Shown here piece after piece: positions 1 through 12,599 of a stretch of 12,599 nucleotides of DNA. The position numbers and the translations under genes are program-made. The stretch lies in contig CAKUHP010000036.1 in the NCBI GenBank assembly GCA_934658705.1, forward strand, positions 1 to 12,599, in the 5' to 3' direction. Within the stretch, counting starts at the first letter, position 1. The number at the start of each line of letters is the position of its first letter. The notes beneath the pieces were generated by a model. The model searched no databases. It saw only the letters and a list, made by a program, of their open reading frames with translations, and had not been told where the DNA came from. The DNA comes from an uncultured Collinsella sp. (GTDB lineage Bacteria > Actinomycetota > Coriobacteriia > Coriobacteriales > Coriobacteriaceae).

Positions 1-927
<927 letters not shown>

Positions 928-950
928 GCAAGCTACATAAGCGATCTGAT

Positions 951-980
951 GGGGCGCTCCTGTCTAGGGCGCCCTATTTT
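951..980 (+). terminator. Intrinsic terminator of serS
   Basis: GGGGCGC (951-957) pairs with GCGCCCT (969-975, one G-T pair). The stem continues inward as CCT/AGG around a GTCT loop after one bulged T. It is followed by ATTTTG. The structure ends the serS transcript and separates it from the next gene. Confidence 0.85.
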
Positions 981-1028
981 GTGCGCAGATCCATACCATG
1001 TCGTGCGGACAGCTCAATAGAAAATACA

Positions 1029-1042
1029 CGAACAGATGTTCT
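1029..1042. promoter_or_regulatory. LexA (SOS) box-like operator
   Basis: The sequence is CGAACAGATGTTCT. The Gram-positive/actinobacterial LexA consensus is CGAAC-N4-GTTCG, often with an A/T-rich centre ending in AT. This site has the first half-site intact, the N4 spacing, and only the last base of the second half-site changed. It lies 60 bp before the start codon of the 125-residue gene and just upstream of, or overlapping, where the -35 would fall for the TATGCT -10 at 1063-1068. That is a repressing position. LexA itself is not in the window, so regulation is inferred. Confidence 0.6.
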
Positions 1043-1062
1043 ATATACAGCTATCTACCTGC

Positions 1063-1068
1063 TATGCT
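1063..1068 (+). promoter_or_regulatory. Candidate -10 box for the 125-residue gene
   Basis: TATGCT lies 33 bp upstream of the ATG at 1102. The hexamer 17 bp further upstream (TTCTAT, about 1039-1045) is a poor -35 and overlaps the end of the SOS-like box. The assignment is weak without transcript data. Confidence 0.35.
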
Positions 1069-1101
1069 TTTGCTAGATAAGAGCGAGAGAAAGGGGATGC
1101 A

Positions 1102-1479
1102 ATGGAGTTGTTCGATGAGCGGGTAGTTATGTTCGAGAGCGATGAAGGCGGTGAGTACCTGCTGGTAACGTGCGAGCCGTCTGGTATGGGTGGCTTGGTG
1201 GTTCGGCAGACGAGCGAGGGGCCGTTGACGCGATGGTGCTATGAGGAATCGCCGCATGTGGTCGAGACGTTTGTGCCACGCGAGGGACTTGCGGCACTTG
1301 AGCACTTCTATGGGGTTGGAACTTCTAACCAGGTTGCTCGCATGCTGAGCATCTCGTTTGCCGACTATGACTGTGCCCAACGGGTGCGGTCACTTTTGGG
1401 GGAGCTTGGCGCCGGGTTCGATGTGATTGAAAAGCCAATCGATCGCACGAGAAGTGTTGGTGCTCGCGGTGCAGCATGA
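1102..1479 (+). CDS. Hypothetical protein, possible SOS-regulated gene
   Basis: 125 residues, not recognised as any family I know. The start ATG has a good ribosome site (AGAAAGGGG, 5-6 nt upstream). The product is acidic and soluble-looking, with no signal peptide or membrane segment. It begins MELFDERVVMFESDEGGEYL and its first half reads like a beta-rich domain. A central stretch (about residues 50-70) has the helix-like segment REGLAALEHFYGV. The C-terminus (about 100-125) has a short helix (VRSLLGELG) and then a basic tail. Three cysteines are scattered and form no metal motif. It stands alone between the serS terminator and the first tRNA-Arg gene. The LexA-like box at 1029-1042 suggests DNA-damage induction. 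SOS-controlled small proteins are often division or mutagenesis effectors, but nothing in this sequence identifies such a role. Confidence 0.75.
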   Translation: MELFDERVVMFESDEGGEYLLVTCEPSGMGGLVVRQTSEGPLTRWCYEESPHVVETFVPREGLAALEHFYGVGTSNQVARMLSISFADYDCAQRVRSLLGELGAGFDVIEKPIDRTRSVGARGAA

Positions 1480-1517
1480 CAAATTACGGTCTCGAGAAAA
1501 AAAGTTTGAGATTGTGC

Positions 1518-1549
1518 TTGACTCCAATAAGCTAAAGTGGTTTTATATG
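1518..1549 (+). promoter_or_regulatory. Promoter of tRNA-Arg copy 1
   Basis: -35 is TTGACT (1518-1523). A 17-bp spacer places the -10 at TTTTAT (1541-1546) within TTTTATATG. The spacer length and the distance to the tRNA 5' end are the same as in copies 2 and 3. The -10 is a weaker match than in those copies. The shared context is GCTTGAC. Confidence 0.65.
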
Positions 1550-1558
1550 TCTTGCGCT

Positions 1559-1635
1559 GCGGCGTTACCTCAGCTGGATAGAGGGTCTGACTACGAATCA
1601 GAACGTCATAGGTTCGAATCCTATACGCCGCACCA
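1559..1635 (+). tRNA. tRNA-Arg(ACG), copy 1
   Basis: A complete cloverleaf of 74 nt plus encoded CCA. The acceptor stem is GCGGCGT (1559-1565) with ACGCCGC (1625-1631). The D stem is CCTC/GAGG. The anticodon stem is TCTGA/TCAGA around the loop CTACGAA, giving anticodon ACG. The variable loop is ACGTC, the T stem is ATAGG/CCTAT with loop TTCGAAT, and the discriminator is A1632. A34 is expected to be edited to inosine to read CGU, CGC and CGA, the dominant arginine codons in nearby genes. It has its own promoter upstream and a terminator 10 bp downstream. Its sequence is identical to copies 2 and 3. Confidence 0.97.
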
Positions 1636-1805
1636 ATTGAAATTGAAGCCTCCGGCAACGGGGGCTTTTCTTTTATGCCGACATCCCATGGATTCGAACC
1701 TCGGTCGAGGCGCGGGCGTGAAGAAAACGCGGAGCGTTTTCAGCCCGCGGGCGAGCACGCCGGCAGGCGGGCGAAGCCGGTGCGGATCCGCGGAGCGGAT
1801 ACGCG
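1616..1805 (+). repeat. 190-bp tRNA-tail repeat, unit A
   Basis: The unit starts in the T-loop of tRNA-Arg copy 1 and ends where the next 20-nt tRNA 3' fragment begins, exactly 190 bp later. In order it holds the tRNA 3' end with CCA, a terminator, a CCTC/GAGG mini-hairpin (1699-1710), a GAAAACGC/GCGTTTTC hairpin with GGA loop (1723-1741), a G+C-rich block with GCCGG inverted repeats (about 1754-1782), and an ATCCGC/GCGGAT hairpin with GGA loop (1786-1800). I see no coding potential beyond accidental open frames. Confidence 0.9.
1646..1674 (+). terminator. Terminator after tRNA-Arg copy 1
   Basis: AAGCCTCCG (1646-1654), loop GCAA, CGGGGGCTT (1659-1667), followed by an interrupted T tract ending TTTTCTTTT. 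The stem has one T-G pair. It lies 10 bp after the tRNA CCA. Confidence 0.88.
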
Positions 1806-1982
1806 GAATCCTATACGCCGCACCAATTGAAATTGAAGCCTCCGGCAACGGGGGCTTTTCTTTTATGCCGACATCCCATGGATTCGAACCTCGGTCGAGG
1901 CGCGGGCGTGAAGAAAACGCGGAGCGTTTTCAGCCCGCGGGCGAGCACGCCGGAAGGCGGCCGAAGCCGGTGCGGATCCGCG
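1806..1982 (+). repeat. 190-bp tRNA-tail repeat, unit B (tandem copy, 3' end missing)
   Basis: Direct tandem copy of unit A. Over 177 aligned positions I count two differences: C1764 versus A1954, and G1771 versus C1961. It begins with the orphan 20-nt tRNA-Arg 3' end including CCA (1806-1825), with no tRNA body. A second terminator and the same hairpins follow. It breaks off after the GCGGATCCGCG sequence, losing the last 13 or so bases of the unit, and runs into unique A/T-richer DNA carrying the copy 2 promoter. Confidence 0.9.
1836..1864 (+). terminator. Duplicate terminator in unit B
   Basis: Identical to the terminator at 1646-1674, shifted by 190 bp: AAGCCTCCG, GCAA loop, CGGGGGCTT, then a T tract. 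It follows the orphan tRNA 3' fragment, not a tRNA gene. Confidence 0.8.
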
Positions 1983-2026
1983 CGGCAACTGAATCAGCGC
2001 TTCGTAAAAATTTTCCAAATTGTTGC

Positions 2027-2055
2027 TTGACCCATCGAAGGGTCACGTGCATAAT
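2027..2055 (+). promoter_or_regulatory. Promoter of tRNA-Arg copy 2
   Basis: -35 is TTGACC (2027-2032), the spacer is 17 bp, and -10 is CATAAT (2050-2055). The tRNA 5' end is 12 bp after the -10. An A/T-rich block (TAAAAATTTTCCAAATT, about 2005-2021) just upstream could act as an UP element. Confidence 0.85.
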
Positions 2056-2067
2056 AATCCGTGCGTT

Positions 2068-2144
2068 GCGGCGTTACCTCAGCTGGATAGAGGGTCTGAC
2101 TACGAATCAGAACGTCATAGGTTCGAATCCTATACGCCGCACCA
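2068..2144 (+). tRNA. tRNA-Arg(ACG), copy 2
   Basis: Identical to copy 1 from the acceptor stem through CCA: GCGGCGT at 2068-2074, anticodon loop CTACGAA, T loop TTCGAAT, acceptor 3' strand ACGCCGC ending at 2140, discriminator A2141, encoded CCA 2142-2144. It has its own promoter and terminator, so it is transcribed independently of the other copies. Confidence 0.97.
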
Positions 2145-2314
2145 GTTGAGCTTTAAGCCTCCGGAAACGGGGGCTTTTCCTTTACGGGGGCATTGCAGAG
2201 ATTCGAACCTCGATAGAGGCGCGAGCGTCAAGAAAACGCGGAGCGTTTTTAGCGAGCGGGCGAGCCCGCCGGCAGGCGGGCGAAGCCGGTGCGGATCCGC
2301 GCAGCGGATGCGCG
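2125..2314 (+). repeat. 190-bp tRNA-tail repeat, unit C (divergent)
   Basis: Again exactly 190 bp from the GAATCC of the real tRNA (2125) to that of the next orphan fragment (2315). It is the most divergent unit. The segment after the terminator differs (GGGGGCATTGCAGAG instead of the GACATCCCATGG type). The mini-hairpin loop is GATA instead of GGTC with the CCTC/GAGG stem kept. The main hairpin is GAAAACGC/GCGTTTTT (2232-2250). It contains a perfect GCCCGCC/GGCGGGC hairpin with loop GGCA at about 2263-2280. Confidence 0.88.
2155..2183 (+). terminator. Terminator after tRNA-Arg copy 2
   Basis: AAGCCTCCG (2155-2163), loop GAAA, CGGGGGCTT, then TTTTCCTTT. It has the same architecture as after copy 1, with a GNRA loop change from GCAA to GAAA. 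Confidence 0.88.
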
Positions 2315-2372
2315 GAATCCTATACGCCGCACCAATTGAACTTTAAAGCTCCCGGCGACGGGAGCTTTTCTT
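2315..2372 (+). repeat. Partial tRNA-tail repeat after unit C, with variant terminator
   Basis: It starts with the orphan 20-nt tRNA-Arg 3' end plus CCA (2315-2334). It then has a different, perfectly paired terminator at 2345-2372: AAAGCTCCCG, loop GCGA, CGGGAGCTTT, ending TTTTCTT. The stem changed on both strands (CTCCCG/CGGGAG versus CCTCCG/CGGGGG elsewhere), so the hairpin is preserved. The repeat ends here, and 2373-2482 is unique A/T-rich sequence. Confidence 0.85.
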
Positions 2373-2482
2373 ATATAACGATTCGGTCAAGTGACAAGCG
2401 TTGAATGTCAGATGATCCAAACTGGTCGTAATTGCCTCAAATGAGTAAAAATCCAATTTGATAACTTTTTTCGAAAAAATGC

Positions 2483-2511
2483 TTGACCTATATTCAGTCC
2501 ATGTGCATAAT
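2483..2511 (+). promoter_or_regulatory. Promoter of tRNA-Arg copy 3
   Basis: -35 is TTGACC (2483-2488), the spacer is 17 bp, and -10 is CATAAT (2506-2511), 12 bp before the tRNA. The 2460-2480 stretch (CTTTTTTCGAAAAAAT) is A/T-rich and could be an UP element. The hexamers and geometry match copy 2. Confidence 0.85.
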
Positions 2512-2523
2512 AATCAACAAGTC

Positions 2524-2600
2524 GCGGCGTTACCTCAGCTGGATAGAGGGTCTGACTACGAATCAGAACGTCATAGGTTCGAATCCTATACGCCGCACCA
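2524..2600 (+). tRNA. tRNA-Arg(ACG), copy 3
   Basis: Identical to copies 1 and 2. The acceptor stem is GCGGCGT 2524-2530 with ACGCCGC 2590-2596, the anticodon is ACG, the discriminator is A2597, and CCA is encoded at 2598-2600. It is independently transcribed. Perfect identity of the three copies while their promoters and tails differ indicates gene conversion or recent duplication plus strong selection. Confidence 0.97.
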
Positions 2601-2770
2601 GTTGAGCTTTAAGCCTCCGGCAACGGGGGCTTTTCTTTTATGGCGACATCCCATGGAATCGAACCTCGGTCGAGGCGCGAGCGTAAAGCGGACGCGGAGC
2701 GTCCGTAGCGAGCGGGCGAGGACGCCGGCAGGCGGCCGAAGCCGGTGCGGATCCGCGAAGCGGATGCGCG
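2581..2770 (+). repeat. 190-bp tRNA-tail repeat, unit D
   Basis: Third location of the unit, again exactly 190 bp between the two GAATCC sites. The order is terminator, CCTC/GAGG mini-hairpin, main hairpin, G+C block, and ATCCGC/GCGGAT hairpin with GAA loop. The main hairpin (2688-2706) is GCGGACGC/GCGTCCGT. Compared with GAAAACGC/GCGTTTTC in units A and B, three neighbouring base pairs changed on both arms, while the GGA loop is unchanged. Confidence 0.9.
2611..2639 (+). terminator. Terminator after tRNA-Arg copy 3
   Basis: AAGCCTCCG (2611-2619), loop GCAA, CGGGGGCTT, then TTTTCTTTT. Same sequence as after copy 1. Confidence 0.88.
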
Positions 2771-2865
2771 GAATCCTATACGCCGCACCAATTGAACTTG
2801 AAGCCTCCGGCAACGGGGGCTTTTCTTTTATGGCGACATCCCATGGATTCAAACCTCGGTCAAAG
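2771..2865 (+). repeat. Partial tRNA-tail repeat after unit D
   Basis: Orphan tRNA-Arg 3' end with CCA (2771-2790), then a terminator (2801-2829), then the GACATCCCATGGATTC segment. Similarity ends in the decayed mini-hairpin (CCTCGGTCAAAGG). It marks the right edge of the repeat region, 94 bp before the next gene. Confidence 0.85.
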
Positions 2866-2905
2866 GGACCATTTCCTATCGACTCGTGTAAGATTTCGAA
2901 TAGAT

Positions 2906-2931
2906 GCCGCGCTTCGTTCGCGGCCCTTTCT
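2906..2931 (+). terminator. Possible hairpin terminator before the 813-residue gene
   Basis: GCCGCG (2906-2911), 7-nt loop, CGCGGC (2919-2924), followed by CCTTTCTT. The stem is short and the T tract is broken. It could be a weak terminator of read-through from the tRNA region or a hairpin in the leader of the next gene. Confidence 0.35.
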
Positions 2932-2958
2932 TCAGTCGACCGATCAGGGTGATATTTC

Positions 2959-5400
2959 GTGGCAGAGCGTCCGACATACAAGCTCAGGTTTCTCGATCCC
3001 AAAAAGCGCTTTCCGGCCATGCCCGAGCAGCCCGCCGGCCGTTCGTATGGCGTGGTCTGGAAGCTCTTTGGCGAGGACCCGCATGAATCATGCTATATCG
3101 TCGAATTCGTCGGCAAAAGCCATGTGTCGCTTTTGGGCTACGTGAGCGTTTCGGGTGAGGTCTATAAGGTGGACCGTCCCGTTAACGAGGTATCGCTGCC
3201 CGACGATCCCGACATGCAACTGATTCTTGACGAGTTCGATTCCAACATCGGTGAGATTGCGGTCAGGGGTACCGATGGGGCGATGCACTCCCGGGCGCGA
3301 GTCATCGGCTCTCCCGAAGGCGCCATGCGCGAACAATCCGATCGCGAGACGTGGAATTCGACGCGCAGCCTTCGCTACGGCGAGTTCATGGCCTCGATGT
3401 TCTTGCGTTACGTGATATTCGCAGATTCCGAAAACGCTGTCGCAAGCACGGCGGAAGCTGACGGCCTCGACGAGGGCATGAAAAATGCCGTCGACAAGAT
3501 CAAGCTTGTAAAACTCCCCGAGCCGGTTGAGGTGTTGCTGGGCTTTGACTCCACGCCGCTGCCCGATGCCATCGAAACATTGCTCTATCGCGTCGACCAC
3601 GCAGATAATCCGAGTGGCATCGAGCGCTATGCCGCGGCCTTGATGGGCGAGGTCAATCTACCGCGCCTGCGCACCATCGCGGCTAAAACCGAAATGAGCC
3701 TGGCGCGCATCGATCGCTCGAGGCTCTTCTATCTCAATTTTGACCGTAGCTTGCTTGACCAGGACGAGATCGATAGTCTGCTTGCCATCGAATGCCGCCT
3801 GAATCGCCTCTCGGGCATCCTCGAGCGCATTGGGGCGGGGTTGGGCCCCGTTGCCTCGTCGCCAAGCTTTGAGGGCTGCTCGCTCTTTGACCTATGGCAT
3901 ATCAGCAAGACGACAAACGACGTTCCCCGTCTGCTCGAAACGCTGTCGAATGACAACCCGTGGGCCAAGCCGGGGACGGTTGCGTGCCAGCCCGGTGGCG
4001 AGTGGGACGTTCGCACCCGCTTTGCACGTATCGTAGAAGCACTCAACGTGGTCACGCGGCTCGACTATACCTACCGAGCGAACATCGCCGAGGGGATCAT
4101 GCTGGTGCGATTTGGTCGCACGGTTGTCGATGCTATGCCGCAGCGCGAATACGATGCTCAAGATGACGCCTGGCGCGAGGTGGATGAGCCTAAGCGTGCG
4201 GCATGGGCCGCTGAGCACGATGCGCGTATTGCGCTTACACTCGCGGCGGCGTGCTTTGCTTCGGGCTCCTGCATCACGCGCTGCTACGTGCAGATTGCGG
4301 CTCCCGACGGCGAGCAGGGCGAGCGCATCGTCGCAACATATTCCTTTGGCCGTGCGGCCTATCTGGCCGATTGCGTTTCCGTCGCCAAAGACCTCGAGAC
4401 GATGGACATGGATGACATGCCCTGCAAGCATTTGCTCGAGGCATATGAGGCAGATGCGCCGGACATGATTGAGCCTGCGGAGGCCCATGCTCGCCCGCGC
4501 GACGACCATCGTCCATTGCCGCCTGCGCTTCGCGATTTGCTGCTCGCCGATACAGCTGACGAGCTTGAGGTCATGGAGGAGGACAACGATCCATATGTCG
4601 CCCGTGTCGTCGAGCTGCGCGAGCAATCCAAAGTTGACCGAGCTGGTGCTTTCGAGGGCTTTTCTCGCCTTGTCGAGGAGCTGGAAGCCAAGTGTACTGT
4701 TGCTGAGCTTTTGGCGACGGGCCCGGTGCAGACCCAGTTCTGCGACAACCAGCTGGTGCGTATGGTGCTGCCGGTGATGGAGGAGGATCGTTCCGTGCGT
4801 ATCCTTCGCGCTCCCGATGCGCTGTATTTTGCCCAGCACGAGATCTGCAGCTTTTACGCCGAACAGGAGGACTTTGAGCGTGCACTGCCCGAGGTGCGTC
4901 GTCTCTACGATTTGGCGCGCTCGTCCATGCAGTCTCATTTTGCCCTGATCAACGTGCTGGCACGCCTGGAGCGCTATGACGAAATTATCGAGGTGGCGCG
5001 CCACGGCCTGCGCATCGCCAGCGATCGCCCCTCGATTGGCTACCTGTTCTATCGCCTGGCGTTTGCCTATTGGAACTGCGACCAGCTTGAGCTGGCGCTG
5101 GCGTGCTACCGCCTGGTGCCGCGCGGCGAGGAGTCGGGCGGTAGCGCGCAGGAGGAAATGCAGGGCCTTATGAACGAGATGGGTGTCATCAAACCGCCCG
5201 CGTTTGAGGAGGCTGTCGAAACCATCCGCAAGGCAGGTCTTGAGCTGCCGCCGGTGCCCGCCGTGACCAATCAACTCGCGGATGCCGCCGTGCAACTCGT
5301 CGATAACGGCTTCTTTTTCCTGGCGCGCGGCTGCATCTATCAAATGTGGCGCACCATGGGCAACGACGAACTCGGCTCCCTCAACCGCTCGCTGGGATAG
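2959..5400 (+). CDS. Uncharacterised 813-residue protein with TPR-like C-terminal region
   Basis: I do not recognise the family. Start is GTG at 2959, preceded by AGGGTGAT, and an in-frame TGA at 2950-2952 rules out an earlier start. The product has no signal peptide or membrane segment, so it is probably cytoplasmic. Residues 1-110 (starting MAERPTYKLRFLDPKKRF) look like a small beta-rich domain. The middle (about 180-450) is mainly helical. An acidic, proline-containing linker lies at about 495-545. Residues about 615-720 read as two to three TPR-like helical pairs (ALYFAQHEICSFYAEQEDFERAL, then ALINVLARLERYDEIIEVARHGL, then FYRLAFAYWNCDQLELALACY). TPR modules usually bind other proteins, so a scaffold role is possible but unproven. 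It stands alone, converging on the minus-strand ATPase gene. No catalytic motif is visible. Confidence 0.9.
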   Translation: MAERPTYKLRFLDPKKRFPAMPEQPAGRSYGVVWKLFGEDPHESCYIVEFVGKSHVSLLGYVSVSGEVYKVDRPVNEVSLPDDPDMQLILDEFDSNIGEIAVRGTDGAMHSRARVIGSPEGAMREQSDRETWNSTRSLRYGEFMASMFLRYVIFADSENAVASTAEADGLDEGMKNAVDKIKLVKLPEPVEVLLGFDSTPLPDAIETLLYRVDHADNPSGIERYAAALMGEVNLPRLRTIAAKTEMSLARIDRSRLFYLNFDRSLLDQDEIDSLLAIECRLNRLSGILERIGAGLGPVASSPSFEGCSLFDLWHISKTTNDVPRLLETLSNDNPWAKPGTVACQPGGEWDVRTRFARIVEALNVVTRLDYTYRANIAEGIMLVRFGRTVVDAMPQREYDAQDDAWREVDEPKRAAWAAEHDARIALTLAAACFASGSCITRCYVQIAAPDGEQGERIVATYSFGRAAYLADCVSVAKDLETMDMDDMPCKHLLEAYEADAPDMIEPAEAHARPRDDHRPLPPALRDLLLADTADELEVMEEDNDPYVARVVELREQSKVDRAGAFEGFSRLVEELEAKCTVAELLATGPVQTQFCDNQLVRMVLPVMEEDRSVRILRAPDALYFAQHEICSFYAEQEDFERALPEVRRLYDLARSSMQSHFALINVLARLERYDEIIEVARHGLRIASDRPSIGYLFYRLAFAYWNCDQLELALACYRLVPRGEESGGSAQEEMQGLMNEMGVIKPPAFEEAVETIRKAGLELPPVPAVTNQLADAAVQLVDNGFFFLARGCIYQMWRTMGNDELGSLNRSLG

Positions 5401-5438
5401 GGATGGCTGGCCTGCCGTTTCCGCATTGAAAAGCGAAC

Positions 5439-5491
5439 TTGTTCAGTATGGTGAACGGAAATGCCTCCAATTTGTTTAACATACTGAACAA
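5439..5491. promoter_or_regulatory. Inverted pair of operator-like palindromes in convergent junction
   Basis: TTGTTCAGTATG (5439-5450) is repeated as its exact reverse complement CATACTGAACAA (5480-5491). Each arm lies in a 16-bp imperfect palindrome, GTTCAGTATGGTGAAC (5441-5456) and GTTTAACATACTGAAC (5474-5489), spaced 33 bp, close to three helical turns. No T tract follows on either strand, so it does not look like an intrinsic terminator. It could be a double protein-binding site or a long cruciform. Confidence 0.55.
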
Positions 5492-5526
5492 AACGGAAGG
5501 TGCGGGGCGGCCTGAACCGAAAACCG

Positions 5527-6935
5527 TCACCCCAGCATCTCTTCGAGTGTAACAAGCTTGACATTGCCGATCGCCGCAGCGCGGTGGTGGCAGTTATCGG
5601 TAAAGCCCTCCTTTGAGAACACGTAGTACCGCTCGATGTGCTCGCCCAAAAGGATGCTGCGTCGCAGGAGCGTATCGAGCACGTCAGCGTCCACAGTCTC
5701 ATTTCGCCATTTGCATTCACCGACGATGAGCCCGCTGTCGATGCTTTCGAACACGATGTCGATTTCTTCCTGCTGCTTTGTTTGAGGATTGGTTCCCCAC
5801 CACGTTCCAATTCCTTTGAACAAGACATTCAAGCTGCCGTTAGCTACTTGTTGAGCTAGCCACTGGCGACAAACGTCTTCGAAAACCGGCCCAACGAACG
5901 TTGGGAAATCAGCTTTAATGATCGCGCTTGCGATCTGCTCTTCGAGCCCAACCTCGAGCGCTCCGGCATATTTAGGGACGAAGCGGTAACAAAAACGAAA
6001 GAGGTTATCGCTGATGCGGTAGAAAACCTGACGTTTTTGGCATTGACTTGAGGCGTTACGCGCTCAACCAGTTGAAGCTCAGCAAGGGCGTCAAGTAATT
6101 GAGAAACTTGCGGGCTGTTGAGGCCAGTGGTATCGGCAATTTCCTTGGGCCGCACGTAGCCGTTGGCAATCGCAGAAATAACGGCGTTGTAAATGGCGGG
6201 ATTCCGCACCTCTTGAAGCAGGCAGTTTTCGGGTTCGATATGCAGGTAGGCGCCCTGGCGCAAGATATACTTGGCAAGATTACCCGCTGTCGAATCCGAA
6301 TCGTCGAACTGACTGAGATACATAGGGATGCCGCCAACGGCCGCATAGAGCTCGACGAGCTTTTGGGCATCGGCCCTCGGGAGCATTTTCTTAGCATCGA
6401 AAACTGAAAAAGGTTTGAGCTTAATCTGCATAGTTCTGCGTCCATACAGGGGACTTTTGTAGCCCATAACCTGATGCTCCATAAAGCTCATTGAAGACCC
6501 GCACAGGACGAGGAATAGTTTGCTCGATTCGCGATTTTGATCGATGAGAACCTGAAGGAACGATGAGATGCCCGGGTAGCAGGCAGCAAGATAGGGATAT
6601 TCATCGATAACGAGAACCAGACGCTCCCTCTGGGCAATCTCGAAGACGGCGGTAAGTGCGCTGCAGATGGAGTTCGTCGTTGGCTCGGGAGTCATCAGGC
6701 CAAAGGCTGGGTCGATTTCCGATAAGGCTTTGTTGAGCAGGCGAACGTTGTCACCGATGGTCGTCTCGAGTGCTGTGAAGAAGCAGACCTTTGGCTTGTC
6801 AGCGACAAAGGTTCTGAGCAGGCTTGTCTTGCCAACGCGGCGACGTCCATAGACGACGGCAAATTGAAAAGAGTCGCTGGAGTAAGCGGTTTCGAGCTCA
6901 GTGAGCTCGCACCCTCGGCCAACAAAAGACGGCAT
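5527..6935 (-). pseudogene. ATPase with C-terminal DUF234 domain, interrupted by one frameshift
   Basis: Member of the archaeal-type AAA+/STAND-like ATPases with a C-terminal DUF234 domain, often found near mobile or defence genes; their cellular role is poorly known. I prefer the ATG at 6935 (MPSFVGRGCEL) because AGGTGAT lies 8 nt upstream and family members start this way; ATGs at 6941 and 6950 are alternatives. Visible are Walker A YGRRRVGKTS (about residues 29-38), Walker B LVLVIDEYP (about 106-114), a sensor-like VLCGSS, and a winged-helix stretch (about 255-290). The frame then breaks at the A run complementary to 6034-6038. One extra A would restore AKKRQVFYRISDNLFRF and join the C-terminal part in one 469-residue protein, normal for the family. 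That part has a PD-(D/E)XK-like EIDIV...GECKW. As written, the upstream frame stops at 5856. This could be a decayed gene, a sequencing error, or -1 frameshifting. Confidence 0.85.
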
Positions 6936-6955
6936 TCGCATCACCTTCATATAGA

Positions 6956-7006
6956 TAAGGTATAACTAATTAAACTATAACGAATTAAGGTATGAATTAC
7001 TATAAC
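6956..7006. promoter_or_regulatory. A/T-rich direct repeats upstream of the ATPase gene
   Basis: On the plus strand ACTATAAC occurs at 6974-6981 and 6999-7006 (25 bp apart), with a third, degenerate copy GGTATAAC at 6959-6966. TAAGGTAT occurs at 6956-6963 and 6986-6993 (30 bp apart). The block is immediately upstream of the minus-strand start codons and much more A/T-rich than its surroundings. It probably contains the ATPase promoter (TATAGT or TATACC on the minus strand as -10) and iterated binding sites for a regulator. I could not find a convincing -35. Confidence 0.45.
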
Positions 7007-7279
7007 AGGACACCATGCACTTGGGATTCACAAGGCTAGCCATGCCGGGTTAGGTTGGTCTGGCGAATGCAGTCGTGGCAAAGAGGGCAGAGGAGAAGTT
7101 TCTCGCCGTATAATCACATTCATAATTGGTGTTGTGCAACAGTGCCTTATTTGTCCGGCGGCCTCAAATAATTACCCGCTTAAAATCTCTTTTAAGGGAT
7201 AGCCGTTTCACATATCTTGTGAATCAGCAAAGGGGTGGTCGCGTACGCGATCGAGAAAAGGGGAAGGGGAGCGATCGTT
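7007..7279. other. Divergent intergenic region upstream of the zinc-ribbon operon
   Basis: This completes the 344-bp gap between the divergent ATPase and zinc-ribbon genes. It has a TATAAT at 7109-7114 but no good -35 at 16-18 bp. A hairpin at 7176-7198 (CTTAAAA/TTTTAAG, loop TCTC, extended by CC/GG past a bulged G) has no T tract after it. The ribosome site GGGGAAGGGGAG is at about 7259-7271. Nothing looks coding. Confidence 0.5.
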
Positions 7280-8704
7280 ATGTATTGCCCTCATTGTGGA
7301 GCCGAGAACGTCGAGAATGCCAAGTTCTGCTATGCCTGCGGAACGCCACTGACTCCTGTTGCTGCAGCGCCGGGTGCACCCGGCGCTTCGGAGACGAGAC
7401 AGAGCATGAATCAGGGCACAGCGTTCGAGCAGGGTGTTCCTGCTTCCTCGCAACAGCCGGCAGGCAATCAGGCGTTCCAGAATGTTGATTACGCTGCGCA
7501 ATACGCCGCTCCAACCAATGTTCAGCCACTGCCTGCCAGCTCGAGCGTCGGCTCCAAAATCTCTGCGATTTCCACGAAACAAAAGGCAATCATCGGCGGT
7601 GTTGCCGCAGTCGTCCTGGTTGCAGTTGTTGCCGTGGTCATGTTCCTGAACAGCGGCCCCTCCAACGGCACAATTGAGCAGATCGTGCGCGAGAACGTCT
7701 CGACCAAGGACATGAGCACTGGCTCGATGTGGAGCGACGGTAGCGATTACTCCATCAAGTCGGTCAAGGTGCTCAGCAAGCAAAAGGGCAATATGCAGGG
7801 CGTCTCGAGCTATCAGGTCATGGGCGTTAGGATTACCGATCCATACTCCGCAAGGGTCGAGGTCGTCTTTGCCAACGATGACTCCGAGGTCACCAAGCAG
7901 GGCAATATCAACCTGGTCAAAGCCAACGGCAAATGGGACACGATTTACTTTACGGGATCCGAACTCGATACAACGGGAACCAAGGTAACCGGGGGCGTCG
8001 ACGAGAAAAAGGTCATCAAGAATATGGGGACGATTCTGAGTACGGCTGATGCAAACGGCTATTCCATGAGCCTGTCCTCGCTGTATGACAACGGCGATTT
8101 TAAGGTTAAGAAAAGCGACCTTAACTCGGAAAAGGCAACGGATACCGTAAAGATCTCTTGCAAGTCGAGCTCGACATACAGCGAAAGTAAGGGCACTATC
8201 ACCGCTAAGTTTGTCTATGGCGGTAATGGTTGGGAACTCAATTCCGTTGATGCGAGCGATGATATCGACAAGGTGAGCTATCAGAAGCTCGTGGGAACGT
8301 GGACCGGCAAGTTTAAGAGCCAATCAAGTAGCGAGGAATGCTTTGGTGGCAAGGCGAATCCCGTTAAGGTGACGATTACCAAGGTTGACGATGAGACCGG
8401 CGAGGTCGAGGGGACGTTTAGTGGCGTGGCGCATAATCACAAGACGCCCGATAACGCAGAGGATTCCGATGCCGGCGATACCGTGCTTACCGATGTTCCG
8501 TTCAATATGGTGTTCACGTTTAATTCCTCGTGGTCGTATCCTTCGGATGACTATGAGTGCCCCCAAGACGCAAACGGCAAAGTGACGTTTTCGCTGAGCT
8601 TTGGCGATGACGCCGTTGCAAAGATCAACACGTCCTACCAGCCGAGCAGCATTTTTGATTGGTCGTACTATTACGACACCTATACGCTGACCAAGGATAA
8701 CTAG
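7280..8704 (+). CDS. Zinc-ribbon, single-pass membrane protein 1
   Basis: 474 residues. I start it at ATG 7280 (MYCPHCGAENV), since zinc-ribbon proteins begin this way and GGGGAG lies 8 nt upstream; an ATG at 7235 would add 15 unsupported residues. Residues 1-24 form a zinc ribbon with Cys3, 6, 17 and 20. A Pro/Ala/Gln-rich linker follows (25-100). Then one hydrophobic helix, IIGGVAAVVLVAVVAVVMFL (about 104-123). Basic residues before the helix and the short N-terminus suggest the ribbon is cytoplasmic and about 350 residues lie outside. The outer part is Ser/Thr/Asp/Gly-rich and beta-like. It ends with a segment starting LVGTWTGKF (about 342) and VTITKVDDETGEVEGTFSG, reminiscent of lipocalin or beta-barrel sheets, though I cannot name a family. 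It is the first of three related genes. Function is unknown; membrane-anchored sensing or cell-surface binding is possible. Confidence 0.88.
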   Translation: MYCPHCGAENVENAKFCYACGTPLTPVAAAPGAPGASETRQSMNQGTAFEQGVPASSQQPAGNQAFQNVDYAAQYAAPTNVQPLPASSSVGSKISAISTKQKAIIGGVAAVVLVAVVAVVMFLNSGPSNGTIEQIVRENVSTKDMSTGSMWSDGSDYSIKSVKVLSKQKGNMQGVSSYQVMGVRITDPYSARVEVVFANDDSEVTKQGNINLVKANGKWDTIYFTGSELDTTGTKVTGGVDEKKVIKNMGTILSTADANGYSMSLSSLYDNGDFKVKKSDLNSEKATDTVKISCKSSSTYSESKGTITAKFVYGGNGWELNSVDASDDIDKVSYQKLVGTWTGKFKSQSSSEECFGGKANPVKVTITKVDDETGEVEGTFSGVAHNHKTPDNAEDSDAGDTVLTDVPFNMVFTFNSSWSYPSDDYECPQDANGKVTFSLSFGDDAVAKINTSYQPSSIFDWSYYYDTYTLTKDN

Positions 8705-8725
8705 AGCGATTCATTTGGGATAGCT

Positions 8726-8757
8726 GGCGGCTCTGCGGATGTGTGAACGGAGCTGCC
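8726..8757 (+). other. Intergenic hairpin between zinc-ribbon genes 1 and 2
   Basis: GGCGGCTC (8726-8733) pairs with GAGCTGCC (8750-8757, one G-T pair) around a 16-nt loop. No T tract follows. The ribosome site of gene 2 begins 7-8 nt after it. It may be an mRNA-stability or processing element that sets different expression for genes 1 and 2. Confidence 0.45.
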
Positions 8758-8777
8758 GTGATGAAGGAGAGACGTCG

Positions 8778-9899
8778 ATGTTCTGCCCGGTATGTGGTAC
8801 AAAAGTGGGAGATAACGCGCGATTCTGCACCGGTTGCGGTGCTCCGCTTAACGCACTGCATCACGACGGTTTTGATGCGTCAACACAAGTGAATCAGGTT
8901 GAAAGCGTTAATCCCGCAGGCCCTGTGAATCCGGTGGACTTTGGGTCCCCGGCACCGATGCCCCAACAACCCAAGCGCTCGAGCATGCTCGATTTTCTCA
9001 CAGAGAAGCGTCAGATCGGCAACCGCTGGGTGCCGACGTTCGCCCTCATCATCGCGAGCTTCATCGCCGCCGCAGGTATCGCTTACGCTGCATTCATGTT
9101 CTACAAGAATGTTGTCGAGCCCCGCATCCAGCAGCCCGTCCAGCAGGAGCAGACGGCGAAAAAGAATAAGGAGCAGCAAGGGGCTTCAGGGGAAGACGAT
9201 AAGAAAAAGGATAATAAGGAAGCCCACATTGCCTACGATGAGGTTTTAACCCAATATCGCGAGGCCTTCGCTGACGGCTCGTTGACAGATAAAGATGAGG
9301 CCAATGGGTTTGTATACGACGATACCGTGGAGTCGCCATATTGGACTGATGGGCTGAAAGACTCTAAACATCCTCTATTCAATTACTTTATAGATGTGCA
9401 GGGGACTGACATAACTTTGCAGGGAATGCGCTATCTCTATAAGGATTTGGATGGCGATGGGGTGGATGAACTTCTAATTGGCCATGCATATGACGATACG
9501 GAGGCCAGTGGTCCATCAACATGTGTTTTGGCTATATATGGGTTTGAGGACCATCAAGTTAAGGGGCTTGTTGCCACAACCGGCTATAGGCAGGGTATGA
9601 CGCTCTGCTCGGACAACGTAATTTGTCAGTCGGGCAATGGTGGATGGGCTGTAGTTTACTGGGATTATAGCCGGCTGATCGAAGGGCATTTCGAGAGCGA
9701 GACAACAATGTCGCAGGATCGCGACGACGATGCGAAGATTGCAACTGTTAAGTGCTCGGGAGCAATTAATGAGGCAGCGAGCGATTCGTTCGAAGGCATT
9801 CATGATGCTTCTAATTTAGTAAATTGCAGTGCATTGATTCAAAAGGTCGAAGAGGCCTATCCGGTTGATACTTCGGCAGCTTGGCAACCGTTGATCTAG
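8778..9899 (+). CDS. Zinc-ribbon, single-pass membrane protein 2 with DxDxDG motif
   Basis: 373 residues from ATG 8778, with AAGGAGAG 6 nt upstream; an earlier ATG at 8739 lacks a ribosome site and precedes the zinc ribbon. Residues 1-24 (MFCPVCGTKVGDNARFCTGC) carry Cys3, 6, 17 and 20. A Pro/Asn/Val-rich linker leads to one membrane helix (about 86-107, FALIIASFIAAAGIAYAAFMF). A Lys/Glu/Gln-rich, probably extended stalk (118-150) and an outer domain follow. The domain contains DLDGDGVDELLIG (223-235), a DxDxDG loop like those that bind calcium in EF-hand/FG-GAP-type proteins. From about 9240 on, A- and T-ending codons become commoner than in the 5' part, suggesting the outer domain has a different history. 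It lies 73 bp after gene 1 and 12 bp before gene 3, so it is very probably co-transcribed with gene 3. Function is unknown. Confidence 0.88.
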   Translation: MFCPVCGTKVGDNARFCTGCGAPLNALHHDGFDASTQVNQVESVNPAGPVNPVDFGSPAPMPQQPKRSSMLDFLTEKRQIGNRWVPTFALIIASFIAAAGIAYAAFMFYKNVVEPRIQQPVQQEQTAKKNKEQQGASGEDDKKKDNKEAHIAYDEVLTQYREAFADGSLTDKDEANGFVYDDTVESPYWTDGLKDSKHPLFNYFIDVQGTDITLQGMRYLYKDLDGDGVDELLIGHAYDDTEASGPSTCVLAIYGFEDHQVKGLVATTGYRQGMTLCSDNVICQSGNGGWAVVYWDYSRLIEGHFESETTMSQDRDDDAKIATVKCSGAINEAASDSFEGIHDASNLVNCSALIQKVEEAYPVDTSAAWQPLI

Positions 9900-9911
9900 C
9901 AAGGAGCAAAT

Positions 9912-11414
9912 ATGTTCTGTCCAAAGTGCGGCGCTAAGCTCGCTGACAATTTAAAATTTTGCACTGAGTGCGGTGCTTCGCTAGAAGGCGCAGCTCAGGT
10001 AATGGCCGAAGTTCGTGAAAGAGCGAGCGCGGACGCCTCGCCATCCGAACTTTCTGGTGAAACACTCGCCGATGGCGCTATGGTGACTGATGCTGTTGAC
10101 GAAGCTGTTGAGGTAGAGCCTGAATTCGGAACGGATGGGCATGTGCTCGACAGCACCCCGCAGGTGAGTGAATCCGCGCAAACATCGACTGCGGCAAACG
10201 CGGTATCTCAGGCTGCGGCTCCGCAGCGGAAAGAGCCCAAGGCGCTCTATATCGTTGGAATTGTCGTCGGGATTATTGCGATTGCGCTGATCTCTTGGCA
10301 ACTCTTCTTTAACGGCTCCGGTGGCAATGTCGTCACGTTCGGCCAAAAGGAATCGGTGGTTTGCGCGCTCGATACCAAGGTAATTCCTACGGACTCAGAC
10401 GGTAATAAAATCACGTCTTTTGTTGCGGAACTCATAGATGAGGATGGTCACTCTTCGAAAGTCAAAGTAACCGGCGAATCAGGTTTTTCGATAGGGAAGT
10501 TCAAGGACGCCGCAGAGGGATCGTACACACTCAAGGTGACCAACAAGCAGACGAAGGTCGAGTATTCGATTCCGGTAAAAATTGTGAGCGATAACCGTAA
10601 ATCTGAGGCCGAAACTGAAATTACTGTTCAAGCTCCTGGCAAGGATGCTGCCACGGATACCAAGAAGGATAATGCGGGCGGGAAAGATGCGGACCCTACC
10701 CAAGTTGCCGCATATCGCGCATACAACCAAAAGTGCCGAGAATATCTCAATAAATATGGCGAGGCACATGTTGTTGAGACGTACGGTTATGCGCTGACGG
10801 GTTTTTGCGTGGCGGATTTGGTTGATTTCGACAACGATGGAAATGACGAGCTGCTAACAATAACGTGCGACCTGGATGAGAGTGCATCCCAGATGGACTG
10901 GATCGGGACAGATTCGACCAAGCCCTATGAGGTCGAGGTCTGGTCTTATGTTGACGGGGGTCTGAAGCGTATATATGAACAGCACTGGGTTGATTACAGC
11001 AACGGTGGCGGTGAGTTCCTCTCTCTTACGGAGAAATCTGGCTCGATTTTTATCGAGAGCAACATGTATATGATGAGCGATCAGATGAAGGCCATGTGCG
11101 AGGAAGGCAATGTCCTTTCTGCTTCAATTACGACGATGCGCGGCAAAAAGGGTGACGCTTTTGAGGACGACATTTCAATGGAAATTGCAGTTAAAGAAAT
11201 ATCGGGTGCAAACGAATCCTTCTGCCTTGTAAGGGGCATACCTGCATCGGAAGGAGAATACGCAGAAGCACTAAAGAGCTATGGGCAACATGCGACCTAC
11301 GCATTGCTGGATTTCAGTATGACGCGAAACGAGTATCGAGATTCGACCTATTTATCCTTGCAAGATGTCCAACAAAGGACTGCGGATACGCTATCAAAGC
11401 TTGAGAAAGCGTAG
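9912..11414 (+). CDS. Zinc-ribbon, single-pass membrane protein 3 with Ig-like and DxDxDG regions
   Basis: 500 residues from ATG 9912, with AAGGAG 6-7 nt upstream. Residues 1-24 (MFCPKCGAKLADNLKFCTEC) repeat the same four-cysteine ribbon (3, 6, 17, 20). An acidic Ala/Ser/Glu/Val-rich linker runs to about 108. A membrane helix follows (about 111-133, ALYIVGIVVGIIAIALISW). The outer part has a roughly 85-residue beta-rich, Ig-like stretch (140-225; note GSYTLKVTNKQTKVEYSIPV). An Asp/Lys linker (about 235-265) leads to a C-terminal domain with DFDNDGNDELL (305-315), the counterpart of the motif in gene 2. This domain and that of gene 2 may be homologous, although little else aligns by eye. It is the last gene of the cluster, closed by a strong terminator 20 bp after the stop. 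Function is unknown. Confidence 0.88.
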   Translation: MFCPKCGAKLADNLKFCTECGASLEGAAQVMAEVRERASADASPSELSGETLADGAMVTDAVDEAVEVEPEFGTDGHVLDSTPQVSESAQTSTAANAVSQAAAPQRKEPKALYIVGIVVGIIAIALISWQLFFNGSGGNVVTFGQKESVVCALDTKVIPTDSDGNKITSFVAELIDEDGHSSKVKVTGESGFSIGKFKDAAEGSYTLKVTNKQTKVEYSIPVKIVSDNRKSEAETEITVQAPGKDAATDTKKDNAGGKDADPTQVAAYRAYNQKCREYLNKYGEAHVVETYGYALTGFCVADLVDFDNDGNDELLTITCDLDESASQMDWIGTDSTKPYEVEVWSYVDGGLKRIYEQHWVDYSNGGGEFLSLTEKSGSIFIESNMYMMSDQMKAMCEEGNVLSASITTMRGKKGDAFEDDISMEIAVKEISGANESFCLVRGIPASEGEYAEALKSYGQHATYALLDFSMTRNEYRDSTYLSLQDVQQRTADTLSKLEKA

Positions 11415-11434
11415 GTAAGCCGTTTAATTTGGCG

Positions 11435-11467
11435 AGGGCGGGGATCATCTGATTCCCCGCCCTTGTT
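11435..11467 (+). terminator. Strong terminator of the zinc-ribbon cluster
   Basis: GGGCGGGGA (11436-11444) pairs perfectly with TCCCCGCCC (11454-11462) around a 9-nt loop, plus an outer A-T pair. TTGTT follows. It is 20 bp after the stop of zinc-ribbon gene 3. Confidence 0.88.
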
Positions 11468-11511
11468 CGGTTACAGCCAAGTTGGCCAAGTTGAGCTTTT
11501 GTAAGACCGGC

Positions 11512-11548
11512 TGTTAAACTTGTTAAAGTTTGCTAAAGTTGTTAAACT
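11512..11548. repeat. Four tandem 9-10 bp repeats in convergent junction
   Basis: Consecutive copies are TGTTAAACT, TGTTAAAGTT, TGCTAAAGT and TGTTAAACT, covering 37 bp with a period close to one helical turn. Just upstream (about 11477-11494) CCAAGTTG occurs twice, 9 bp apart. The block lies between the operon terminator and the 3' end of the convergent gene. It may be phased protein-binding or bent DNA; no gene start is nearby. Confidence 0.55.
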
Positions 11549-11586
11549 CGCCACCACGAATTCGGCAACGCTCATGTCCAGCCTAC

Positions 11587-12599
11587 CTATCTCCCGCTCG
11601 CGATTCGTTTGAGCTCGGCTTTTCGCTTGCTGTTGAGGAGTTGGTCCAGGTTGAGACCCTCGGATCCACAGCGTTTAAGCAGGTCGGAGCCGTTGAACCC
11701 GTTTTCGGCAAGATCATCTTCTAGCTCATGCTTGAGCTGAGTCCATTTACTCAATTGTTTGCGAATATAGTCGGGGCGGCGCTCGGTCGCCCCGACTATT
11801 TCGTTTATCGATTGGCCCAGAGAGAAGCGACGACGTATCTCGAGCGTTTCCTGACGGGTCTTTTCGTTCTTGGCATCGGTCTTGCACTTTTCGCTGCAGT
11901 ATTTACGCTCCATGCCGCGATGTCCCGCGAGCGAAAAGGCGCGTCCACACTGTTCACAGTACCCGATGCGCACGGTGCTGAGCTTGCGCGAAAAATCGAA
12001 CCACAACCAGGATAGATAGCTGTCAAACGAAAGAAATCCGGTGGACTCGCTGCCTTGGAACACGTCGACGTGCGCACCGGAGAGATGTGCAATCACGAGT
12101 GCTTGGACAAGTGCGGTGAGCGCTCCCTTGTCGGTGTCGTCGAGGGGTCTGTTTTGCGGAACGATGCTCGCATCGGGGGCGATGTCGTAGTAGCTCTGTT
12201 CGCTGGGAACAAGTTTGAGATGCTGCAGCGCTGCGCGTGAGTCGTCATCGCTCAGGGCGAGCAGTAGCTTGAGGGTCTCGAAGTCTTCCAGGGTTAGCTC
12301 ATGGTCAAAGGAAAAGACGCGGAATTCAACGACGGATCCGGCGGCATCTCCCGTCGCGGAGACAAAGGCGTAGAAAAAGCCGTCGTTCGATTCGATGCGA
12401 CGGATGATTGGCAGACTCTTGAAGCATGCCGCGTAGCCACCGCTTATACCGAGGTAAATCGAGTACATGGAGAACGACGACCTGTCGGCTTCACTTGTGA
12501 TGACGACTTTATCTATCTGCCGAATGGCGCTGACTTTTGCAATGCTGCAGTTACCGTTGAGGAACTCCTGAATGCGCACCGCAACAAGTGCCGATACGG
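11587..12599 (-). CDS. Zinc-finger (CxxC-x16-CxxxC) protein with HTH-like tail, 5' end outside window
   Basis: The frame is open to the window edge at 12599, and the GTG at 12579 has no ribosome site, so the true start probably lies beyond the window. At least 330 residues are visible, numbered here from that GTG. The N-terminal two thirds (about 1-205) is a predicted mixed domain I do not recognise. A metal-binding motif follows at about 207-232: YCEQCGRAFSLAGHRGMERK, then YCSEKC, a CxxC-x16-CxxxC arrangement like the treble-clef or CGNR/DUF6076-type fingers with the KYCS..C signature. A basic stretch and a likely helix-turn-helix (about 245-275, FSLGQSINEIVGATERRPDY) follow, suggesting nucleic-acid binding. 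Family membership (DUF6076-like) is a guess from the finger pattern. A perfect 12-bp inverted repeat (11767-11799) lies within the HTH codons. Confidence 0.8.
   Translation of the reverse strand, partial: VSALVAVRIQEFLNGNCSIAKVSAIRQIDKVVITSEADRSSFSMYSIYLGISGGYAACFKSLPIIRRIESNDGFFYAFVSATGDAAGSVVEFRVFSFDHELTLEDFETLKLLLALSDDDSRAALQHLKLVPSEQSYYDIAPDASIVPQNRPLDDTDKGALTALVQALVIAHLSGAHVDVFQGSESTGFLSFDSYLSWLWFDFSRKLSTVRIGYCEQCGRAFSLAGHRGMERKYCSEKCKTDAKNEKTRQETLEIRRRFSLGQSINEIVGATERRPDYIRKQLSKWTQLKHELEDDLAENGFNGSDLLKRCGSEGLNLDQLLNSKRKAELKRIASGR
11767..11799. other. Perfect 12-bp inverted repeat within a coding sequence
   Basis: ATAGTCGGGGCG (11767-11778) and CGCCCCGACTAT (11788-11799) pair perfectly around a 9-nt loop. 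On the plus strand it is followed by TTTCGTTT, giving a terminator-like form facing against the gene. On the coding (minus) strand it encodes the IVGATERRPDY part of the putative HTH. Confidence 0.75.

Follow-up and report, generated by a model that had tools for sequence, protein, structure and literature searches.

In Escherichia coli, the tRNA-linked repeats (TLRs) occur downstream of tRNA or rRNA genes in the same orientation, often in tandem, and carry a copy of the 3′ end of the upstream RNA. According to one study (PMC8144298), the E. coli genome holds 22 copies at ten loci, the last 18 to 19 bp of which are identical to the 3′ end of the upstream RNA; read-through transcription and processing are described for three copies that follow 5S genes, with the RrB 3′ end lying 3 nucleotides (nt) beyond the copied 5S end. 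The same study states that RrA, RrB and RrF bind Hfq and CsrA, and that a starvation phenotype initially attributed to the tyrT copy has been retracted. A tandem GA motif has been reported in RtT, the tyrT-linked RNA (PMC7657543), and a 175-bp variable-number tandem repeat is listed for the Salmonella rtT RNA (PMC2658671). Here we analyzed a stretch of 12,599 nt from an uncultured Collinsella sp. (assembly GCA_934658705.1, contig CAKUHP010000036.1, positions 1 to 12,599), hereafter called the window, in which a repeat unit lies behind each of three tRNA-Arg(ACG) genes. Our results indicate that these units are of the TLR kind and do not belong to the RtT family. While the TLR kind itself is known, its occurrence in Coriobacteriia behind tRNAs of 25 anticodons and transfer-messenger RNA (tmRNA), the tailoring of both unit ends to the host RNA and the conserved fold appear to be new, none of them having come up in the open-licence papers searched, among which there was also no report of TLRs in Coriobacteriia.

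The three tRNA-Arg(ACG) genes of the window are identical in sequence according to ARAGORN, and each locus continues from the tRNA into a terminator, GC-rich sequence, a 20-nt copy of the tRNA 3′ end running from G57 to CCA, and another terminator. The copies read GAATCCTATACGCCGCACCA, and the period from gene end to copy end is exactly 190 bp at all three loci (1635 to 1825, 2144 to 2334 and 2600 to 2790). ARAGORN, reading of the sequence and a repeat search thus bore out the original prediction in that each of the three genes carries a 190-bp unit, the unit starts inside the T-loop (position 1616 is G57), and the tRNA 3′ end with CCA recurs ahead of a terminator. The repeat is not a product of chance, since a 300-nt block recurs within the window at 88 to 93 % identity and the unit is located at the same place in relatives. 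The plan of a unit and its surroundings is tRNA, terminator, antisense T-arm, a core of hairpins P2 to P5, sense 3′ end and terminator (Table 1). The antisense T-arm had been overlooked in the prediction, as had the other tRNAs and tmRNA that serve as hosts, the leftover left end near position 2845, and a truncated unit that comprises the left end and most of the core without the right copy. The three full units of the window scored 147 to 148 bits (E value of about 1e-39) with the covariance model R1, which is no independent test because all three are among its training sequences.

Table 1. Features of the three tRNA-Arg(ACG) loci in the window
Feature	Position	Strand	Basis
tRNA-Arg(ACG) gene 1	1559..1635	+	ARAGORN, Rfam tRNA
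Terminator T1 between tRNA 1 and unit 1	1645..1674	+	Hairpin GCCTCCGGCAACGGGGGC followed by a T-run, by reading
Unit 1, full: antisense T-arm, hairpins P2 to P5, second tRNA 3′ end	1681..1825	+	Model R1, 147.1 bits
Antisense copy of the tRNA-Arg T-arm within unit 1, GGATTCGAACCT	1690..1701	+	By reading; complementarity rule tested across 163 units
Copied tRNA-Arg 3′ end of unit 1, T-loop nt 57 to CCA76	1806..1825	+	20 of 20 nt as in tRNA 1
Terminator 3′ of unit 1	1835..1864	+	By reading
Truncated second unit 3′ of tRNA 1	1871..~1980	+	R1 match 1871 to 2027, 98.5 bits; breakpoint by reading
tRNA-Arg(ACG) gene 2	2068..2144	+	ARAGORN
Terminator T1 3′ of tRNA 2	2155..2184	+	By reading
Unit 2, full; right copy 2315 to 2334	2190..2334	+	Model R1, 148.3 bits
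Terminator 3′ of unit 2	2346..2374	+	By reading
tRNA-Arg(ACG) gene 3	2524..2600	+	ARAGORN
Terminator T1 3′ of tRNA 3	2611..2640	+	By reading
Unit 3, full; right copy 2771 to 2790	2646..2790	+	Model R1, 147.3 bits
Terminator 3′ of unit 3	2801..2830	+	By reading
Remnant of an additional unit: left end with nothing but the antisense T-arm, one mismatch	~2845..2864	+	By reading

Although an arginine-tRNA version of the E. coli tyrT repeats had been proposed, the unit proved to be carried by tRNAs of 25 anticodons and by tmRNA. A BLAST search with the unit gave matches in nine of nine relatives, also beyond the tRNA-Arg loci, and a tRNA or tmRNA was present at all 20 further places taken from the BLAST list; many of the initial BLAST matches are based on the core and lack the left end. 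Model R1, built from an alignment of 33 units behind eight RNA kinds (A1, the three window units included), matched 39 of 43 genomes in the genus of genome G007 (Collinsella), with up to 20 matches per genome, and at least 87 of 296 genomes of the class Coriobacteriia, a lower bound given the strict filters and the ten candidates scored per genome. A scan of the phylum matched 15 of 396 genomes, of which 13 had been matched before at the genus or class level, and its matches L271, L272 and L282 (genomes G425 and G473) adjoin tRNA-Ser or tmRNA.

The position of the units was then counted in 180 stretches, which are part of all matches and were chosen by model score or place regardless of tRNAs. 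Their 245 matches reduced to 220 distinct ones, L173, L174, L206 to L208 and a few other matches of 18 to 22 bits included. Two hundred of these followed a tRNA or tmRNA gene on the same strand at a distance of at most 400 nt, and Rfam added L099 (tmRNA) and L091 (tRNA cut by the contig end), giving 202 of 220. The unit is found at tRNA genes of other Coriobacteriia, but not always directly downstream of a tRNA or tmRNA. The remaining 18 matches comprise L112, which sits 479 nt behind a tmRNA gene; five that by reading lie behind tRNA 3′ fragments (L166, L209, L232, L234 and L245); six at contig ends (L213 three times, L181, L182 and L248); four of about 18 to 20 bits without a tRNA, which we took as chance matches (L172, L175 and L207 on the plus strand, L104 on the minus strand); the free-standing L124; and L241, whose placement is ambiguous.

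Random placement does not account for this arrangement. In genome G011, 15 of 16 units lay within 350 nt of a tRNA gene and the 16th was the tmRNA unit, and in genome G022 all 11 units lay within 350 nt behind a tRNA gene, where 0.07 and 0.05 units, respectively, were expected; it should be noted that the model favours tRNA neighbours, as its ends contain tRNA-derived letters. The unit-bearing tRNA genes (14 of 57 in G011 and 11 of 49 in G022) were, all 25, the last of their run. These counts used 16 of 18 and 11 of 13 matches, respectively, obtained with a second model, R2, built from matches in the class of G007, and by their coordinates the four weak matches omitted also lie behind tRNAs.

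Several single loci deserve mention. The units at tRNA 3′ fragments give the impression that the gene was split by an island, which took along its 3′ half with the unit. At L124, positions 1501 to 1639 of the minus strand hold a lone unit whose right copy of a tRNA 3′ end reads CCCGCTGGGGGCACCA, and ARAGORN found no tRNA in this 3139-nt stretch. At L272 (1280 to 2031, minus strand), ARAGORN called an overlapping permuted tmRNA beside the normal one, probably because a second tmRNA 3′ end lies in the unit; a second CCA end may thus mislead annotation.

Both ends of the unit follow the RNA behind which it stands, as counted in those 163 of the 220 matches that have a tRNA or tmRNA gene with a readable T-loop no more than 150 nt away. 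The right copy spans tRNA nt 57 or 59 to 76; its longest exact match to its own tRNA averages 17.4 of 20 nt, and the own tRNA type was superior to every other type in 145 of the 163 units. Identity to the own tRNA is 84 to 98 % at nt 59 to 76 and 9 to 37 % at nt 54 to 56. For tmRNA units the median match is 10.5 of 20 nt, so that the identity over 18 to 19 bp known from E. coli is mostly not reached. Four tmRNA units of the C. aerofaciens group (L038, L046, L052 and L056) keep the T-stem strand in a right copy without acceptor and CCA, and in tmRNA unit L099, from another genome, the right copy is complete.

The left strand is the antisense of the T-arm of the own tRNA, nt 51 to 64. Complementarity amounts to 0.94 to 1.00 at nt 52 to 62, 0.82 at nt 51 and 0.61 to 0.63 at nt 63 and 64, and the left match averages 13.3 nt with the own type against 8.3 nt with another type. 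At nt 59, the left strand pairs in 0.98 of the units, compared with 0.33 when the tRNA of another type is used. At nt 57, it follows the tRNA in 163 of 163 units, A meeting T in 14 of 14 and G meeting C in 149 of 149. Moreover, in 44 of the 149 G57 units the G is absent from the right copy and the C is retained in the left strand, which argues that the left strand follows the intact tRNA and not merely the copy. Pairing of the left strand with the right copy (helix P1), counted in 154 units after removal of duplicates, is 0.69 to 0.99 at nt 59 to 64 and near background from nt 65 on, with a small excess at nt 65 to 67.

Between the two ends lie four hairpins, P2 to P5, which are supported by covariation. 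In alignment A1, 88.6 % of the cells pair, changes on both sides occur in 18 of 42 pairs (13.9 in shuffled alignments, 2 of 500 of which were as high), and the covariation score is 0.249, compared with 0.129 for shuffled alignments (0 of 500 as high) and 0.048 to 0.095 for slid ones. P5 alternates between ATCCGC/GCGGAT and ATTTGC/GCAAAT, P3 between AAAC/GTTT and GGAC/GTCC, and by inspection of the alignment the outer part of P3 alternates between GG/CC and tandem G-A steps. The loop of P5 has the form C-GNA-G in 161 of 237 rows, and among the 25 commonest forms of the P3 loop, GNA (80) and GNRA (75) together account for at least 155 of 237 rows. In the P2 to P5 helices, G-U cells outnumber A-C cells by 204 to 49, about 70 of the G-U cells stemming from one pair; eight weak rows were left aside in these loop and pair counts. 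The G-U excess and the GNA and GNRA loops suggest that it is the transcribed strand that folds, although GNA loops would be stable in single-stranded DNA too.

By a simple rule, a terminator-like structure stands ahead of the unit in 136 of 163 cases and after it in 101 of 163. Folding was predicted for read-through RNAs, from which tmRNA was excluded; the sets of 143 units also excluded units whose right copy matched fewer than 15 nt. The antisense-T-arm helix, with at least 8 pairs, was present in the minimum-energy fold of 131 of 157 RNAs, and forcing it was predicted to be more favourable than a separate tRNA fold in 149 of 157. The natural antisense lowered the predicted energy relative to shuffled antisense in 139 of 143 cases, by a mean of 8.6 kcal/mol. 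When antisense-tRNA pairs were forbidden, the computed energy averaged −81, a value that seems to be an artefact of how the constraint was imposed and was not used.

Units differ between strains. Close strains carry zero to two units per tRNA-Arg gene. By reading, seven of ten tRNA-Leu(CAG) loci have a unit and three are empty, and the 19 loci of the single tRNA-Ser(GCT) gene divide into seven with a unit, five with the antisense T-arm only, six with a decayed unit and one that is cut. A tree was built from 197 cores; it requires 97 changes of tRNA type, with a minimum of 25 and a mean of 152 after shuffling (none of 200 shuffles as low). Close relatives tend to share a type, and some clades consist of one genome or genome group with many types; in a quick tree, seven units of G022 at seven tRNAs form one clade (SH-aLRT of 98). 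Such one-genome clades would result if units had spread to new tRNAs or if cores had undergone gene conversion, and the tree is weak because the core offers few columns. In phage and plasmid collections, the best matches listed cover at most 17 % of the query, and only tRNAs are named as features there, the other matches being without annotation. No Rfam family matched the unit in the window or at other unit loci, weak microRNA and leader matches being taken as chance, and the Collinsella-1 RNA (RF01700) gave no match in Rfam scans of the window and ten other unit loci.

The likeness to E. coli tyrT suggested by the original prediction went deeper than length and plan. The Coriobacteriia units have the traits of TLRs, namely the position downstream on the same strand (202 of 220), the copied 3′ end and the occurrence of one or several units per locus. 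The tyrT and lysV TLRs further share with them a left antisense of the T-stem or T-arm, a right copied 3′ end and hairpins with GNA loops in between. In E. coli, the TLRs behind tyrV carry a 10-nt antisense in three of three cases, and for lysV, where a terminator again precedes the TLR, the antisense matches the lysV T-arm exactly over 13 nt. Model R2 was run on 15,760 bases of E. coli, made up of K-12 tyrT and nine other stretches, two of which overlap and eight of which hold tRNA or rRNA genes. The top five of its 14 matches were the four tyrT TLRs and the lysV TLR (28.9 to 18.2 bits), part of the score coming from tRNA-derived end letters, and the other nine reached at most 12 bits. The Coriobacteriia units may well share descent with the E. 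coli TLRs. The two sets nevertheless differ in that Coriobacteriia belong to another phylum, with up to 20 matches per genome, 25 anticodons and tmRNA sharing one core and a terminator-like structure in front in most units, and in that their antisense covers nt 51 to 64, whereas that of the E. coli tyr and arg TLRs covers mainly the 3′ strand of the T-stem.

The RtT RNA itself (RF00391, E. coli tyrT/rttR) resembles the units in its consensus closing helix, formed by antisense T-stem and copied end, and in the reported tandem GA motif, comparable to the tandem G-A steps seen by inspection in P3. Its model matches the E. coli lysV TLR at 47.3 bits, and an Rfam scan of the window gave no RtT match. 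The rrA, rrB and rrF small RNAs of E. coli are likewise TLRs between two terminators with a copied 3′ end; they differ in having 5S as host gene, and in rrB no antisense of the 5S end was seen by eye. At L294 (450 to 530, E. coli rrnB), the 5S-linked TLR holds GGATTTGAAC, which resembles an antisense T-loop though the host is 5S; this TLR may descend from a tRNA-linked copy. REP elements are scattered between genes in general and are moved by a RAYT protein. This assignment was rejected, as the matches sit 3′ of tRNA or tmRNA genes; no search for RAYT genes was made.

On balance, we lean towards the explanation that the units are TLRs of the E. coli kind, predicted to be read out past the tRNA terminator as a structured RNA, and likely to act on the precursor of their own tRNA. 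By analogy with the read-through of the 5S-linked TLRs, the units may give rise to small RNAs. With moderate confidence, we favour a cis-acting RNA whose left strand would have two alternative partners, the distal 3′ end and its own tRNA. Once RNA polymerase has passed T1, the left strand could pair with the distal 3′ copy (P1, nt 59 to 64), leaving the tRNA free; alternatively, it could pair with the T-arm of its own tRNA over 14 nt (nt 51 to 64) and spoil the fold of the precursor. The second 3′ end would then serve both as a competing partner and as a processing signal, and unit number would change through recombination between the repeated stretches of 3′ end and terminator. It would go further to regard TLRs as cis-acting antisense gates of tRNA and tmRNA production, in which a read-through transcript would bring along its own anti-T-arm and the duplicated 3′ end, as the competing partner, would decide the folding of the precursor; this we regard as doubtful.

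Several observations weigh against an action of the units on their own tRNA or against the kinship with E. coli TLRs. Read-through may be rare, given the terminator-like structures between tRNA and unit, and the folding model ignores the tertiary structure of tRNA. The distal acceptor strand was chosen in 113 of 143 RNAs with natural and 342 of 429 with shuffled antisense; being predicted with or without the antisense, this choice is no evidence for a switch, and the switch reading based on it was dropped. Further pair types, one of five covariation measures in A1, showed no excess (39 versus 40.7 in shuffled alignments). The left strand fitted its own type better than all others in just 43 of 163 units, the best other type often tying because T-arms are alike, and in A57 units the right copy also has A in 13 of 14, so that copy and intact tRNA are not separated there. 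In the C. aerofaciens group, the right copy of tmRNA units is often reduced to the T-stem strand. No single unit can be essential, as many strains are without units at tRNAs that bear them elsewhere, such as the three empty tRNA-Leu(CAG) loci. On the E. coli side, R2 did not find the arg and rrB TLRs in its test set, only one of three arg TLRs has an exact antisense of at least 8 nt (argV, 8 nt), and the RtT cut-off of 45 bits was reached in 0 of 39 genus-group genomes and 1 of 14 controls, the best match among the 39 being a true unit at 24.4 bits.

The main rival explanation draws on integrative elements with T-loop attachment sites, which show a block of identity from the T-loop to the tRNA 3′ end. 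The unit would accordingly be a small non-autonomous mobile element with the T-loop as attachment site, mobilized by a recombinase in trans and devoid of a cell function; the copied 3′ end would be the displaced target, and the structure would be recognized by the recombinase. The right copy does run from the T-loop to the 3′ end, a direct repeat at the far side of the unit as in those elements; units come and go among close strains, some stand behind mere tRNA 3′ fragments, and the 97 type changes on the core tree, with one-genome clades over many tRNA types, fit with movement. However, gene conversion between cores would yield the same tree pattern, and the unit differs from integrative elements in its length of just 190 bp, which leaves no room for a recombinase gene, in its inverted T-arm and in its conserved hairpin core. 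Moreover, both ends, including the inverted T-arm, would need re-tailoring at each new tRNA, and we know of no integrase that does this. The G-U excess and the GNRA and GNA loops point to the transcribed strand, and the empty Ser sites retain the antisense T-arm. We consider a mobile element rather unlikely, though it is the alternative to be taken most seriously.

A small-RNA gene or processing decoy, as the original prediction had in mind, would use the second CCA end to occupy tRNA-processing enzymes or to stabilize a small RNA acting in trans. The conservation of the copied 3′ end down to CCA agrees with this, as do the RrB 3′ end near the copied 5S end and the binding of RrA, RrB and RrF to Hfq and CsrA in E. 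coli (PMC8144298). Such a role leaves the antisense to nt 51 to 58 unexplained, and nothing 5′ within the unit pairs well with the copied acceptor strand, pairing being near background from nt 65; we hold it to be improbable. If tRNA 3′ ends were simply duplicated in tandem and homogenized by recombination, without RNA or DNA function, this could produce tandem arrays, truncated copies, the zero to two units per tRNA-Arg gene among strains, and a repeat of the kind listed for the Salmonella rtT RNA (PMC2658671). Such duplication would make neither an antisense T-arm nor compensatory changes, and it does not explain why tRNAs of 25 anticodons and tmRNA share one core; it is strongly opposed by the counts of covariation and tailoring and very improbable. 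A link to bridge RNAs or to a CRISPR-like duplication of repeats was considered as well and set aside.

About 200 tailored copies in a distant phylum provide comparative data beyond the reach of the 22 E. coli copies, and they yield a conserved fold, a two-end tailoring rule and the precise prediction of an antisense to nt 51 to 64. If this antisense acts on its own tRNA, it would add a layer of control over tRNA and tmRNA supply across a class of gut bacteria, and no such layer was found in the open-licence papers searched. Should TLRs act as gates, a repeat family described as early as 1978 would gain its first general function, one that extends class-wide in Coriobacteriia over 25 anticodons and tmRNA. 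If, on the other hand, the unit is mobile, an element that rebuilds both ends for each tRNA would be new to us as well.

Outside the repeats, an 813-residue protein encoded next door gave 20 matching loci, all of them labelled Collinsella, at 87 to 96 % identity in the best segment. At 7235 to 8704, 8739 to 9899 and 9912 to 11414 of the window, neighbouring frames start by eye with zinc-ribbon-like motifs (CPxCG...FCxxCG), each followed by a hydrophobic stretch.

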